From Pacificispira spongiicola (GTDB taxonomy: Bacteria; Pseudomonadota; Alphaproteobacteria; UBA8366; Aestuariispiraceae): a DNA stretch of 64,000 nucleotides. How positions within the stretch are numbered: the first letter of the stretch is position 1; each line of letters starts with the position of its first letter. Shown in pieces: positions 40,432-45,535 of this stretch. Made by a program: the position numbers and the translations under genes. The notes under the pieces were generated by a model. The model worked only from the letters and a program-made list of their open reading frames with translations, ran no database searches and was not told the origin of the DNA. Where the stretch lies: the NCBI RefSeq assembly GCF_012926505.1, contig NZ_JABBNT010000005.1:434001-498000 (forward strand), given 5' to 3'.

Positions 40432-41127
40432 TCACGCCTCTTTGGTCGGCTGCTTGCCGTAGGTTTTGAATTTCTCGATGACCTCCGCCATCTCCGCATC
40501 GGACAGGATGACAGGTTCGCCCCCCTGCCGCGCGGCGAGATACTGTCGCGCCAGGCTTTCCACCTCAATGCCGAGGGCCAGGGCTTTGCCCAAATCACCC
40601 TCGAAGCAAATCATGCCGTGATTGGCCAGTAGACAGGCCTTTCGCCCCTCCAGCGCCGCGATCATCGTGTTTGACAGCGCCTCCGTCCCGAAAGTCGCGT
40701 AGTCCGAACAGCGAATGTCGCTGCCACCCGCCATGGCCACCATGTAATGAAAGGACGGAATACCCTCCCGGCGGCAGGCCAGCGCCGTGCAATGGGTCGG
40801 ATGGGCATGCAGGACGGCCTGGGCTTCCGGTCGATGGCGATAGATATCCGCATGCATGCGCCATTCGCTGGACGGCAGCAACTGGCCCGGTTCCACCGTC
40901 CCGTCCAGCGCCATCAGCACGATATCCATCGGCTTCAGCTTGTCATAGGCGACACCGCTGGGCGTGATCAGCATACCGTCGCCGAAGCGCGCGGACAGGT
41001 TGCCGGATTTTCCCTGATTGATGCCCGATGCGTTCATCGCCAGACAGGTGTCGATGATCTTCCGGGACAGGGCCTGCCGTTCGTTCCGGCCCAGTGTACT
41101 TCCCGGTGTATTTCCCGGCGTGTTCAT
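40432..41127 (-). CDS. Class II aldolase, FucA family; likely methylthioribulose-1-phosphate aldolase
   Basis: A 231-residue class II aldolase/adducin protein. Zinc ligands are E88 (SSEWR), H107 and H109 (HAHPTH) and H170 (LANHGMI). The whole body, including [22 protein letters not shown] and the tail EKFKTYG, follows L-fuculose-phosphate aldolase rather than the MtnB dehydratase. Next to mtnA, this pattern matches the Rhodospirillum-type DHAP shunt, where such an aldolase splits methylthioribulose-1-phosphate (or 5-deoxyribulose-1-phosphate) to dihydroxyacetone phosphate and an aldehyde. The N-terminus has a short NTPG repeat. Overlaps cimA by ATGA. Confidence 0.8.
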
Positions 41128-42713
41128 CGCACCCCATCACGCATGAGCTTATAGGCGTAAGCATCGTAAAGCGCGATGACCGAAGCGTCGATAATGTTCG
41201 CGGATATCCCGACCGTGGACCAGCGGAAACCGTCGTCATCCTCGCTTTCGATGGTCACGCGGGTGACGGCGTCGGTCCCGGTCGTGCCTTTCGGCGGGGG
41301 CAGGATACGGACCTTGTAATCCACCAACTGCATACCGGCGAGATCCGGGTAGATTTCCACCACCGCCTCGCGCAAGGCGGTGTCCAGCGCGTTGACCGGT
41401 CCGTTGCCCATGGCGACGCGCATGACGGTACGCCCCTGCACTTCGACCTGCACCGTCGCTTCGGATTCGGTGATCAGCTTGCCCACCGCATTGTGGCGGC
41501 GTTCGTCCATCACCCGGAAACGGGAGATATCGAAATAGTCCGGCACGTCACCTTTCGCATGATGGGCCAGCAGTTCGAAACTCGCCTCCGCCCCGTCATA
41601 GGCATAGCCCTGGAATTCCCGTTGCTTCACGTCGTCCAGCAAACGGCGCATCGCGGCATCATCCAATTCGATCCCGCTTTCGGCCAGTTGCGCGACGACA
41701 TTCGACCGACCGGCCTGATCCGACACCACGACATGCCGCTTGTTCCCGACCAGGGCCGGATCGATATGTTCGTAGGTCTTCGGGTCCTTCGCGACGGCGG
41801 AAACATGCAGCCCGCCCTTATGCGTGAAGGCCGCCGCCCCGACATAGGGCTGGTGCCGGTTCGGTACACGGTTCAACCGTTCGTCCAGCAACCGCGACAG
41901 ACCCGTAACTTCCTGCAATTTTTCCGGCGCGATTCCGGTATCGAATCCCATTTTCAGCATCAGCGTCGGGATCAGGGAAATCATGTTGGCATTGCCGCAG
42001 CGTTCGCCCAGCCCATTGATCGTGCCCTGCACCTGACGCGCCCCGGCGCGGATCGCAGCCAGCGAGTTGGCCACCGCGTTTTCCGTGTCGTTATGCGCAT
42101 GGATGCCCAGGCGGTCGCCGGGTATGTGCTCCGTCACCTCGCGGACGATCGCTTCCACCTCATGCGGCAGGGTCCCGCCATTGGTATCGCACAGCACGAC
42201 CCACCGCGCCCCTGCCTCATAGGCCGCCTTCACGCAGGACAGCGCGAATTCCTTGTTGGCCTTGTAGCCGTCGAAGAAATGTTCGGCATCGTACATCGCC
42301 TCTTCCTTACGCGCGGCGGCCAGCGCGATGGAATCGGAAATCATGCGGACGTTCTCTTCCCGCTCGATCTCCAGCGCCACGTCGACGTGATAGTCCCAGC
42401 TCTTCCCCACCAAACACATGGCATGGGCCTGGGAATTCAGCAGCGGCGCAAGGCCCGGATCGTTTTCCGCCGACCGTCCCGGACGCCGCGTCATGCCGAA
42501 GGCGACAAGCTTCGCCTTGGACAGCTTCGGCGGCTTGTCGAAGAAACTGTCGTCGGTCGGATTGGCGCCGGGCCAGCCGCCTTCGATATAGTCGATACCG
42601 ATCTGATCGAGCGCCTGCGCGATGGCGACCTTATCCGCCACGGAGAAATCCACACCCTGCGTCTGCGCGCCGTCGCGCAGCGTCGTGTCGAAAAGATAGA
42701 TACGCTCGCTCAT
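41124..42713 (-). CDS. cimA: Citramalate synthase
   Basis: A 529-residue enzyme of the isopropylmalate synthase group that condenses pyruvate and acetyl-CoA to (R)-citramalate, a threonine-independent entry to isoleucine. The N-terminal barrel starts YLFDTTLRDGAQTQGVDFSV and has the metal motif GIHAHNDTENAVANS; the C-terminal regulatory domain (about 380-520) allows feedback by isoleucine. The first residues and the GLGERCGNAN segment favour CimA over LeuA. It starts 27 bases after cysS and overlaps the aldolase. Confidence 0.9.
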   Translation of the reverse strand: MSERIYLFDTTLRDGAQTQGVDFSVADKVAIAQALDQIGIDYIEGGWPGANPTDDSFFDKPPKLSKAKLVAFGMTRRPGRSAENDPGLAPLLNSQAHAMCLVGKSWDYHVDVALEIEREENVRMISDSIALAAARKEEAMYDAEHFFDGYKANKEFALSCVKAAYEAGARWVVLCDTNGGTLPHEVEAIVREVTEHIPGDRLGIHAHNDTENAVANSLAAIRAGARQVQGTINGLGERCGNANMISLIPTLMLKMGFDTGIAPEKLQEVTGLSRLLDERLNRVPNRHQPYVGAAAFTHKGGLHVSAVAKDPKTYEHIDPALVGNKRHVVVSDQAGRSNVVAQLAESGIELDDAAMRRLLDDVKQREFQGYAYDGAEASFELLAHHAKGDVPDYFDISRFRVMDERRHNAVGKLITESEATVQVEVQGRTVMRVAMGNGPVNALDTALREAVVEIYPDLAGMQLVDYKVRILPPPKGTTGTDAVTRVTIESEDDDGFRWSTVGISANIIDASVIALYDAYAYKLMRDGVR

Positions 42714-42740: not shown

Positions 42741-44111
42741 TTAAGCCCGTCGCCATTCGGTGACACCGCCGGGTTTGTCCTCCAGGACGACGCCTTTGTC
42801 CTTCAATTCGTCCCGGATACGGTCCGCCTCGGCAAAATTCTTCGCCGCCTTGGCCGCCTTGCGAGCCTCGATCAGGGACTCGACTTCCTCCGCAGACGGT
42901 CCGTCGCCCGCATCCGCCCCTTTGAACCAAACATCCGGTTCCATCTGCGCGATACCCAGCAGGTCCAGCGCACCGAGGAAGCGCGCAGCGCCTTCGGCCG
43001 TGTCGATGCCTTCGGCCAGCTCATGCAGCTTCGCTAATGCCAGCGGCACATTCAGGTCATCCGACAGCGCCGAAACAAAAGCACCGTCCACCGAGGGATC
43101 GACGCCGTGGGTTAGCGCCGTCTGTTTCAGTCGATAAAGACGATCCAGGGCCGCCTTCGCCTCCCGGCATTTGTCCTTGGAGAAATCCAGCGGCTGCCGG
43201 TAATGCGCCTGCAGAATCACGAGGCGCAACGCCTCCCCCGGAAACTCTTCGAGCAACTCGGCGACGGTGTAAAAGTTGCCGAGGCTTTTCGACATCTTCT
43301 CGCCCTCACTCATCAGATAGCCGTTATGCATCCAATAGCGCGCGAAGCGATCGCCGCGTTCCGATTCCGCATGGGCGCAGCAGCTTTGCGCGATTTCGTT
43401 CTGATGATGCGGGAAGACAAGGTCGATCCCGCCGCCATGGATATCGAAATCCGGGCCCAGAAACTTCTCCGACATGGCGGAGCATTCGATATGCCAGCCG
43501 GGTCGGCCCTTCTCGCACCAGGGATTCGGCCAGCCGGGCGTTTCCGCGTCGGACGGTTTCCACAGCACGAAATCCGCCGGGTCGCGCTTGTAGCTGGCGA
43601 CATCGACGCGGGCGCCGGAAATCTGCTCGTCCCGGTCTTTGTTGGCGAACTTGCCGTAGTCGGGCCAGGACGGCACGGAAAACAGCACATGCCCGTCTTC
43701 CAGGGCATAGGCATGACCGCGTTCGATCAGCGTTTCGATCAGCGCGATCATCTCCGCAATCGTTTCCGTCGCGCGCGGTTCGTGGTCCGGTGGCAGGACG
43801 TTCAGCGCCGCGCAGTCTTCCCGGAAGCGGTCGACCGTCGTTTCGGTCAGGTCGCGGATATCGATGCCGCGTTCCTTGGCCCGTGCGTTGATCTTGTCGT
43901 CGATGTCCGTGATGTTGCGGACATAGGTGACGTCATATCCGCGCCGCAGCAGCCGCGCGAACACGTCGAAGACAACCAGCGGCCGCGCATTGCCGATATG
44001 GATACGATCATAAACCGTCGGCCCGCAGACATACATGCCGACCTTCCCCTGGATCCGGGGTTCGAACGTCACTTTCTGGCGTCGGCTGGTATCGTAAATC
44101 TTCAGGTCCAT
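42741..44111 (-). CDS. cysS: Cysteinyl-tRNA synthetase
   Basis: The 456-residue class I synthetase charges tRNA-Cys. HIGH motif is HIGNARPLVVFDVF, KMSKS motif is KMSKSLGNF, and the zinc site begins with CGPTVYD and continues with C and H residues in the CP1 region. The ATG at 44111 is chosen; a GTG one codon earlier is possible. It is the first structural gene of cysS-cimA-aldolase-mtnA and lies behind a leader with a Cys-codon frame and a GC-rich hairpin. Confidence 0.96.
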   Translation of the reverse strand: MDLKIYDTSRRQKVTFEPRIQGKVGMYVCGPTVYDRIHIGNARPLVVFDVFARLLRRGYDVTYVRNITDIDDKINARAKERGIDIRDLTETTVDRFREDCAALNVLPPDHEPRATETIAEMIALIETLIERGHAYALEDGHVLFSVPSWPDYGKFANKDRDEQISGARVDVASYKRDPADFVLWKPSDAETPGWPNPWCEKGRPGWHIECSAMSEKFLGPDFDIHGGGIDLVFPHHQNEIAQSCCAHAESERGDRFARYWMHNGYLMSEGEKMSKSLGNFYTVAELLEEFPGEALRLVILQAHYRQPLDFSKDKCREAKAALDRLYRLKQTALTHGVDPSVDGAFVSALSDDLNVPLALAKLHELAEGIDTAEGAARFLGALDLLGIAQMEPDVWFKGADAGDGPSAEEVESLIEARKAAKAAKNFAEADRIRDELKDKGVVLEDKPGGVTEWRRA

Positions 44112-44135
44112 CACACTCTCACTTGCATAAGTTAA

Positions 44136-44162
44136 ACCCCGCTGGCTGGTCTGCCGCGGGGT
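44136..44162 (-). terminator. Candidate attenuator hairpin in the cysS leader
   Basis: On the minus strand ACCCCGC pairs with GCGGGGT (44156-44162 with 44136-44142) around a 13-base loop and is followed by TTTAACTT. It lies between the leader peptide stop and the cysS start, where an attenuation terminator belongs. The U tract is short, so strength is uncertain. Confidence 0.6.
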
Positions 44163-44193
44163 CCGTTCAGTCGTCCAATCCGGGAAGGAAATC

Positions 44194-44271
44194 TCAGACA
44201 GGCACCACCGACGGCCGCCGCGACAGGCAGCAGCCGGTAATAATCCCGATAATGCAGATCGACGCGGTCAT
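44194..44271 (-). CDS. Putative cysteine-rich leader peptide of cysS
   Basis: A 25-codon frame opens with ATG at 44271 and ends TGA at 44196-44194. It starts MTASICIIGIITGCCLS, with Cys at positions 6, 14 and 15 all encoded by TGC; positions 14-15 are tandem. Three Cys in 25 residues is far above the usual proteome level of about 1 percent. The codons sit 40-110 bases before a hairpin that precedes cysS. The likely role is to stall the ribosome when charged tRNA-Cys is scarce and so open the downstream operon. The ribosome site (GACGGAA) is weak. The peptide itself need not have a function. Confidence 0.6.
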   Translation of the reverse strand: MTASICIIGIITGCCLSRRPSVVPV

Positions 44272-44310
44272 GTCGCGGTTCCGTCAACGGGTGGTGGTTC
44301 CTGGATCGGC

Positions 44311-44338
44311 ACTATACGCGGCAACCCATGCTTGGCAA
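44311..44338 (-). promoter_or_regulatory. Promoter of the cysS leader
   Basis: Minus strand TTGCCA (44338-44333), 16 bases, TATAGT (44316-44311). Transcription would begin near 44304, about 33 bases before the leader ATG, giving a leader of about 190 nt before cysS. Confidence 0.55.
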
Positions 44339-44360
44339 GGGGATAGCGATGACGGACCGG

Positions 44361-44783
44361 CTATTGCGCATCCGCCGGCTGCTCGCCCTCTTCCGGCAAA
44401 CCGCGATCGACGCAATCCAGGACCCAGACGTCATAGACCGCGTGTTCCACCGCGTTCAGACCGGGGCTGGACGCAAACATCCAGCCGGTGAATAGAACCT
44501 TTTGATCCTGACCCGGCCGCAATTCGTCAATTTCCACGAAGGCGGCGGCTTCCGGCTTTTCTTCCGGCGGCGTCTTGTCGCAATGGCGCACACGGATGCG
44601 CAGCGCCCCGAAATCGATCGGCTGATCGATCGCGACTTCGAAGGTCGAAACCTGTGCCGTCACCTTGTCCAGGCCTTGCAGCACCGCCGTGTTCTTCGGC
44701 TCCGCCCAAGCGGGAGAAACCGTCGTGAGCGTCAGCGCCAGGGCGGCGGTCAGGGGAAGCGTCAGGGGAATCAGTCGTTTCAT
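44361..44783 (-). CDS. DUF2155 domain protein
   Basis: The ATG at 44783 (MKRLIPLTLPLTAALALTLT) opens a signal peptide ending ...SPAWA, so the 140-residue product is exported. The rest matches the alphaproteobacterial DUF2155 family: VLQGLDKVTAQVSTFEVAID, a conserved Cys in RVRHCDKTPPEE, FTGWMFASSPGLNAVEHAVYDVWVLDC. Function unknown; synteny with NDUFA12 and mlaD genes is typical of the class. Its ATG overlaps the methyltransferase stop (ATGA). Confidence 0.85.
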   Translation of the reverse strand: MKRLIPLTLPLTAALALTLTTVSPAWAEPKNTAVLQGLDKVTAQVSTFEVAIDQPIDFGALRIRVRHCDKTPPEEKPEAAAFVEIDELRPGQDQKVLFTGWMFASSPGLNAVEHAVYDVWVLDCVDRGLPEEGEQPADAQ

Positions 44784-45535
44784 GCCAACACCGCCGAAAA
44801 TCTTAGCCGGACGTAATCCGCGATCCAGACACCGTCCGGATCCGTCAGGACCGGGCGCAGGGACGCGCGCAAGGCCGTTACCGTTCCTTCCCGGATTGTC
44901 GGGTCCAGCCGGTTCAGGAAACTTTCGCCGAAGGTCGCGAGCCAGCCGCCGACATCGCCGGGCAACGGCGTGGGCCGCTCGATCAATTCGATGGACCGCA
45001 CATTGAAACCGGCAGCTTCCAGACGCGCGCGATAGTCTTCCACCGTCGGGAAATACCAGGGATCGGCCGCGTCCGGGTCGACACCATGCACCGCCACGGC
45101 CGTGCGCAGCGCGGTGCGCAAGGTTTGCACATTTCCGGCCCCACCGAATTCCCCGACGAAACGACCGCCGGGTTTCAAGGCTTTCGCCACACCCGAAATC
45201 ACCGCATCGGGCTTCTTCATCCAATGCAGGGCGGCGTTGCTGAAAACGGCGTCGAATTCCCCCTCGAACGTCAAGGCCTGCCCATCCATGACATGGGCGT
45301 CCAGGCCGTCTTCCCGTGCCTTGCGGATTTGATCGACGCTGGCGTCACAGCCGGTGACGACACAGCCCATCGCCGCCAGCTTCGCGGTCAACGCCCCATC
45401 GCCGCAGCCAAGGTCGAGAATCCGTTCCCCCCGTTGCGGGGCCAGCAGTTCGACCACCGGCATGCCCAGTTCCGCCACGAAACCGGCGTTTTGCCGGTAA
45501 CGATCCGGGTCCCAGTGTTGATTGGCGATTGTCAT
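44780..45535 (-). CDS. Class I SAM-dependent methyltransferase
   Basis: A 251-residue methyltransferase with the SAM loop ILDLGCGDGALTAKLAAMG at residues 40-58, the acidic residue in VTGCDAS, and FDAVFSNAALHWMKKPDAVI as motif post-I. It resembles trans-aconitate 2-methyltransferase and generic ubiquinone/arsenite-type enzymes; the substrate is not known. It starts 24 bases after the mlaD gene and overlaps DUF2155. Confidence 0.85.
   Translation of the reverse strand: MTIANQHWDPDRYRQNAGFVAELGMPVVELLAPQRGERILDLGCGDGALTAKLAAMGCVVTGCDASVDQIRKAREDGLDAHVMDGQALTFEGEFDAVFSNAALHWMKKPDAVISGVAKALKPGGRFVGEFGGAGNVQTLRTALRTAVAVHGVDPDAADPWYFPTVEDYRARLEAAGFNVRSIELIERPTPLPGDVGGWLATFGESFLNRLDPTIREGTVTALRASLRPVLTDPDGVWIADYVRLRFSAVLA

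Follow-up and report, generated by a model that had tools for sequence, protein, structure and literature searches.

The short reading frame ahead of cysS in Pacificispira spongiicola raises the question of which amino acids it would report on, and for which genes. Within the window (the whole stretch of DNA analysed, 64,000 nucleotides), cysS is followed after a gap of 27 nt by cimA, whose product, citramalate synthase, performs the first step of the threonine-independent isoleucine route, and the leader frame has Ile at codons 5, 7, 8, 10 and 11 and Cys, always TGC, at codons 6, 14 and 15. Based on the comparisons given below, the region is probably a ribosome-mediated attenuator of the cysS-cimA operon with two inputs, Ile and Cys. 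Its features are as follows:

44311..44338, minus strand, sigma-70-type promoter TTGCCA-N16-TATAGT, 10/12 consensus matches
44194..44271, minus strand, leader ORF of 25 codons, MTASICIIGIITGCCLSRRPSVVPV*, with ATG start at 44271
44213..44235, minus strand, stem 1:2 (44235-44227 with 44221-44213), spanning the tandem Cys codons, from RNAalifold
44151..44226, minus strand, stem 2:3, candidate antiterminator (44226-44218 with 44159-44151), from folding with the ORF start masked
44136..44162, minus strand, stem 3:4, candidate terminator hairpin, -18.8 kcal/mol
44127..44136, minus strand, weak T stretch TTTAACTTAT, from the sequence
42741..44111, minus strand, cysS, cysteinyl-tRNA synthetase, TIGR00435, 493 bits against a cut-off of 340
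41124..42713, minus strand, cimA, citramalate synthase, TIGR00977, 675 bits against a cut-off of 450

All parts named in the preliminary description of this DNA, i.e. the promoter, the frame of 25 codons carrying Cys at positions 6, 14 and 15, the hairpin and a cysS start about 25 nt further on, were found in place. The promoter is the one site of its kind in 43500-45000 (mean 0.3 in shuffles), and a similar promoter was recognized by eye in L005-L009, L011 and L014. The leader ATG lies 40 nt past the end of the -10 box, a spacing that would leave about 30 nt of untranslated 5' sequence. For cysS, the likely start is the ATG at 44111, 25 nt past the hairpin, because L005-L009 share this ATG with no GTG before it; the GTG at 44114, where the ORF tool places the start, is possible. 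Stem 3:4 consists of 7 bp with a further 3 bp and a bulge inside, and hairpin 44162-44136 was not among the calls of an automatic terminator scan. The whole leader was found to fold more stably than 200/200 shuffles (z -3.34).

Recurrence of the leader in related genomes

The frame was followed in the window's own family (f1, 14 genomes), the named members of which, Curvivirga and Hwanghaeella, are Rhodospirillales, Aestuariispiraceae, and in a genus set of six members, the window (L001) and L005-L009. Same-strand cimA follows cysS in 14/14 f1 loci, 29/30 loci of a second family, f26, and 4/4 loci of f113, at a distance from cysS to the cimA start (from alignment) that varies up to 892 nt (L008) and, in f26, up to 737 nt. 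Leader-like frames, including MAFTIDIIGIICGCRARGGRWRC, MTVFCIIIDIIICGCRIARRSSVMLT, MSPTAIIIISPCRIICGCRCC, MTPTIVIAFPICRIICGCRCC and MSQVMQITIPVICCCPAEISIMGGCCC, were recognized by eye in 12/14 f1 genomes (L015 doubtful); in L010 and L012 the operon is present, and inspection by eye found no upstream leader frame. Conservation of the frame in relatives, on which the preliminary description had made its reading depend, was also seen with a fixed rule (at least two Ile, at least one Cys, at least five together, at least 20% of codons), which detected an Ile+Cys frame in 11/14 f1 genomes, versus 20/700 shuffles (2.9%). It was noticed that cysS and cimA of L034 (CP051228.1, titled Mesoflavibacter sp.) are 86-88% identical to those of the window's alphaproteobacterium, and the name looks wrong.

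Alignment of the genus set revealed that Ile10, Ile11 and Cys14 (window numbering) are conserved in 6/6 members, whereas the tandem Cys pair 14-15 occurs in 1/6; thus, of the Cys codons that had been expected to be kept in relatives, only Cys14 was retained throughout and the pair was not. The L007 leader retains six Ile and one Cys. Downstream of Cys14 the reading frame diverges (L001, L005 and L008 compared), and the RNA sequence is largely retained. The T stretch noted earlier behind the hairpin is present in the window, but it is weak; a U-rich TTTTCAGTTTT follows the hairpin in L005 and L006, and a U-run is absent in L007-L009, i.e. 3/6 genus members. A search of Rfam 15 at gathering scores left the window and eight relatives without a match, and 44080-44360 had none even at E up to 5.

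A covariance model, R1, was made from 21 f26 leaders, with 4 of 25 (L242, L245, L254 and L262) left out, and it matched the window as follows:

44148..44271, minus strand, R1 match, 26.8 bits, E 4.2e-6 in the 64-kb window

The match starts at the leader ATG, and the next best place in the window scored 11.7 bits. R1 also recovered the four left-out and six further f26 leaders, and matched L005-L009 (18.5-33.3 bits), L301 (29.0) and L265 (16.8); scores for L011, L014, L017 and L266-L268 were not significant, and L010, L012, L013, L015 and L016 had no R1 match. The score draws partly on the Ile and Cys codons themselves; the leaders of the window's genus, among f1, and those of f26 are probably one drifted family. 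The breadth of f26 (the draw held 41 genera of a larger group) and its leaders suggest that it is Rhodobacteraceae. In 29/31 f26 leaders a long-range stem, GCGGG:CCCGC, lies at a near-fixed distance past the stop; its next outer pair is C-G in 13, G-C in 10 and other or unpaired in 6 when the placement is chosen for the longest extension, and GC in 9, CG in 6 and unpaired in 6 in the 21-leader alignment. It is with this stem, showing pair swaps, that the R1 alignment pairs stem 2:3 of the window, and in the same alignment the f26 tandem Cys codons do not coincide with Cys14-15 of the window, which stand opposite the region of the f26 stop codon. A conserved GGGCCGYTC and a pyrimidine-rich stretch were observed after the f26 stop, directly past the long-range stem's 5' arm, and the 3' arm of this stem carries a conserved GCTAAGCCCGC.

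Codon content and the gene following cysS

In the 280 nt upstream of cysS, frames that start with ATG and are 9-45 codons long were compared with dinucleotide shuffles for 19 amino acids. In f1, Ile (z 17.1) and Cys (z 12.7) were enriched and the 17 others were all below 0; in f26, Ile reached 28.7 and Cys 16.3, the next being Thr with 4.7. AU-richness is unlikely to be the cause of the Ile excess, because Phe, Tyr, Asn and Lys had z of 2.6 or less in both families. These enrichments above other amino acids, and a full-length covariance-model match beginning at the ATG, argue against a chance short frame lying over a conserved promoter and terminator with no codon-based regulation. Cys codons alone are indeed not rare by chance: 7 of the 561 ATG frames (9-45 codons) in the window, leader included, show a CC pair plus three or more Cys within at most 30 codons, and the frame past Cys14 differs among L001, L005 and L008. 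The leader is raised above chance because it recurs in the family, and it is itself the one frame in 561 with at least eight Ile+Cys at 25% or more of its codons; we regard a chance frame as highly improbable.

The wider survey drew 191 genomes of the class, 169 of them with a cysS match; 100 upstream stretches were read, 99 being usable (L161 too short), and cimA was found within 400 nt downstream of cysS in 43/100. A look for relatives of G095 gave a family of one genome. The statistics of the class set were noisier than those of f1 and f26: genomes with cimA within 400 nt (n=43) gave Ile 9.4, Leu 5.8, Cys 3.7 and Tyr 3.3, and those without adjoining cimA (n=56) Leu 11.6, Cys 8.6, Ser 4.7 and Ile 1.5. 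The Leu enrichment was rejected as a leader signal, its source probably being frames that resemble coding ends, which we take to be those of gltX. The Cys excess of the non-adjacent set is partly due to a single frame in L206, a Cys-rich frame of 41 codons beginning MAQDIKQNKSCKCGCGCACC, 186-60 nt upstream of cysS, which is atypical as a leader and presumably metallothionein-like.

With the fixed rule, frames were found in 21/30 f26 (shuffles 1.7%), 4/4 f113 (shuffles 1.0%) and 5/41 other cimA-adjacent class genomes, 36/41 being without; the counts were 0/56 for non-adjacent class genomes, 1/29 for f137, in which cimA was seen in 0/29 loci within the sequence examined around cysS, and 0/13 for the same-order loci L018-L030, where cimA follows cysS in 0/13. 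The shuffle background over all sets was 0.7-2.9%. Since leaders can be chosen by Cys alone and their Ile measured after, circularity was avoided in a further comparison, in which 31 Cys-picked leaders from 104 cimA-adjacent regions had a mean Ile of 0.239 (expected 0.034), whereas 22 from 150 regions with cimA not adjacent had 0.017 (expected 0.033; Mann-Whitney p 6e-10, uncorrected for kinship of the genomes). For f26, adjacency in this comparison meant same-strand cimA however far off within the stretch (39-737 nt); at least one genome is present twice (L079 and L147), and L238, L267 and L274 (genomes already in), L052 (an f1 duplicate), L054 and L112 (too little sequence) and those of L018-L033 outside f1 were left out. 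Counted by family, for those in which at least two genomes were read, Ile was present in four (f1, f26, f113 and f109) and absent or nearly so in three (f137, f13 and f7), f13 and f7 being represented by two genomes of one genus each. Four cimA-adjacent Cys-picked frames, L140, L144, L149 and L151, have little Ile and fit the Ile rule poorly; two of them may be chance frames.

Examples of Ile+Cys leaders are MKSICIICCIISC and MNTASIIIICCITR in f26, MTIAATTACICCTIIIS in f113 and MTRCQNQICQICIGCICCQSIICG in f109. Counts of ATT/ATC/ATA were 32/26/0 in f1, 57/44/1 in f26 and 15/5/0 in f113, in 41 hand-picked leaders that serve this ratio only. Several f137 leaders contain Cys with Ile scarce or missing (MFVRAFSPCCCACCCR, MSRAAFACPACRSCCC), and MQKHVICCVCICG has two Ile; judged by their codons, the f137 frames that carry Cys and in which Ile is absent or nearly so, such as MFVRAFSPCCCACCCR, are a separate cysteine-only version. 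In f137, such frames of L274, L277, L282, L287 and L297 were observed about 75-130 nt upstream of cysS (that of L282 from -178), with no cimA. It was also observed that 1) L257 carries MNAPNRIIGIIIGG, with Ile and zero Cys, and L080 MARITIHCPIFISGIITG, with Ile and one Cys codon, both ahead of cysS-cimA, 2) L054, L064, L066, L092, L144 and L149 form a leader-like group about 57-122 nt upstream of cysS with endings RCC..GR(I/V)I(A/V) or RCC..GRRITG, cimA following cysS in 6/6, and 3) the L092 frame of this group is without ATG. The pattern GGNTGYTGYTGYTRA had 23 sites in 11 f1 genomes, versus 6 for the reversed control; 20/23 were read, two at cysS (L131 and L132) being leaders and the other 18 being set aside as they look, by eye, like coding or chance frames. 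With this narrow pattern no second poly-Cys leader was found elsewhere in the 11 genomes.

The preliminary description had proposed control by cysteine and knew of no alphaproteobacterial cysS case. Such a case has been published as uORFC-8-2 (PMC8632094): in its main text, 145 examples are reported exclusively upstream of cysS in Rhodobacterales, with an AUG-started uORF, tandem Cys codons usually at 14-15 and lying in the first stem, and a terminator-like end with a U-run, and ribosome-mediated attenuation is proposed. By that description, the window's leader shares with uORFC-8-2 its position directly upstream of cysS and the tandem TGC TGC at codons 14-15, and its stem 1:2, covering codons 13-15, may be compared with the first stem reported. 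The U-run is weak in the window, clear in L005/L006 and missing in L007-L009. Differences lie in the family, which is Rhodospirillales-like (Aestuariispiraceae) and outside the Rhodobacterales range reported, and in that the window and f1 leaders are Ile-rich and the operon includes cimA, uORFC-8-2 being reported as a Cys reader; 'isoleucine' and 'citramalate' have 0 occurrences each in the main text of PMC8632094.

A cysteine-only attenuator like uORFC-8-2, the Ile codons of which keep the region unstructured or are ancestral, would suit cysS being the first gene, the presence of Cys14 (aligned) in 6/6 genus members and the existence of such leaders at cysS without cimA, as in f137 (MFVRAFSPCCCACCCR). 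We consider it unlikely, as Ile enrichment exceeds that of Cys in f1 and f26, the Ile excess is missing in Cys-picked frames without adjacent cimA, ATA is almost unused in the hand-picked set, and for Phe, Tyr, Asn and Lys there is little or no enrichment. In addition, Ile occurs without Cys in L257, and L080 and L242 have one Cys each. Cysteine control stands as far as a Cys-codon frame recurs before cysS, but Ile is at least as enriched and the operon includes cimA. Dual reading of Ile and Cys is well supported by these comparative codon statistics; the mechanism beyond it is one that we infer.

Alternative folds and ribosome position

RNAalifold on the six genus members gave stems 1:2 and 3:4, and stem 2:3 became the minimum-energy fold once the first 44 nt of the ORF were masked. 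The antiterminator partner that the preliminary description could not see by eye was thus found in silico as a mutually exclusive candidate. In the genus, stem 1:2 is paired in 54/54 cells, stem 3:4 in 50/54 and the related core of stem 2:3 (alignment columns 15-24 with 76-84) in 51/54, with 0 both-side changes in each.

Ribosome positions were simulated with the edge 12 nt from the start of the A-site codon and equilibrium folding. In L001, the terminator probability was 0.06-0.13 with the A site anywhere in codons 1-8, Cys6 among them, 0.91 on Gly9, 0.65 on Ile10, 0.23 on Ile11, 0.00 on Thr12, 0.93 on Gly13, and at least 0.99 from Cys14 through the stop. A stall on the tandem Cys14-15, previously suggested to prevent the terminator, would accordingly leave it at 0.99, and the pair is found in 1/6 genus members. 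Without a ribosome the probability was 0.28, which differs from the classical default. Since the low-terminator region includes codons 1-4, which are neither Ile nor Cys, the profile lacks specificity for Ile/Cys positions. With the A site on the Cys that aligns with Thr12, the terminator dropped to 0.11 in L006 and 0.05 in L009; L007 and L008 had a smaller drop (L008 only 0.34), and L005 showed no switch, its lowest value being 0.93. In L011 the terminator was fully lost on codons 9-13, Cys12 included. When the switch was scored as the drop of terminator probability between stall and stop, against 100 shuffled spacers, it was matched by 2-5/100 shuffles in L001, L006, L007, L008 and L009, by 34/100 in L005 and by 58/100 in L011 at Ile-Ile-Cys. 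Across the genus, the in silico switch is clear in L001, L006, L007 and L009, partial in L008 and none in L005.

A ribosome translating the leader would require Ile-tRNA (for ATT/ATC) and Cys-tRNA. Shortage of either would stall it within codons 5-12 and leave segment 2 free for segment 3, and the 2:3 pairing would block hairpin 3:4, by which transcription would proceed into cysS and cimA; in relatives without the U-run it is perhaps translation, instead of transcription, that would continue into these genes. With both plentiful, the ribosome would cross segments 1 and 2, 3:4 would form and expression would drop. Leader translation, stalling, termination and the physiological response are all predicted steps. 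It is possible, if somewhat doubtful, that the output is translation or Rho-dependent termination, with hairpin 3:4 or a relative masking the ribosome-binding region, an arrangement compatible with the two-input attenuator. In line with this, the hairpins of L007-L009 are without a U-run, and inspection of f26 by eye places the downstream partner of its long-range stem near a GAGG-like site before cysS, with no U-run after it; however, in L001, L005 and L006 U-rich sequence comes after a GC hairpin, and a U-run is reported for uORFC-8-2 in the main text of PMC8632094.

Relation to known leaders and significance

In the trp, his, thr and ilv attenuators of Enterobacteria, leader codons are those of the operon's own amino acids and three stems are mutually exclusive, the thr and ilv leaders reading more than one amino acid. 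The present leader resembles these in its own-operon codons and exclusive stems, but unlike them it pairs a synthetase (Cys) with an enzyme that belongs to the pathway of a different amino acid (Ile). Mycobacterial poly-Cys ORFs are reportedly leaderless, whereas the window ORF is not at the inferred transcription start, its ATG being 40 nt past the -10 box. Actinobacterial poly-Cys leaders, as described in part of PMC1262725, are short frames with Cys runs near the stop that precede sulfur genes, namely cys operons or cbs, and have no conserved terminator; the window frame precedes cysS instead. Among the matches listed in a literature search, no title dealt with a cimA leader or an Ile/Cys leader. 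The leader-peptide attenuator type is already known, for cysS in one order; here it is another order and a second input not named in PMC8632094. What appears to be new, as judged from the genomes compared, is that the leaders have more Ile than Cys codons and that cimA follows cysS.

On balance, we lean towards a more general reading, in which several alphaproteobacterial families have a two-input leader that couples the Cys synthetase to the Ile enzyme and reads the charged tRNAs of both amino acids. Its codon composition would follow the operon genes, with Ile where cimA is present and mainly Cys where cysS is alone. That leader codons go with the genes of the operon is predicted from genomes alone. 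If true, the published cysteine motif might be re-read as an isoleucine-cysteine motif, a reason would be offered for cysS and cimA travelling together, and the leader would be a natural sensor uniting two unrelated amino acid supplies.
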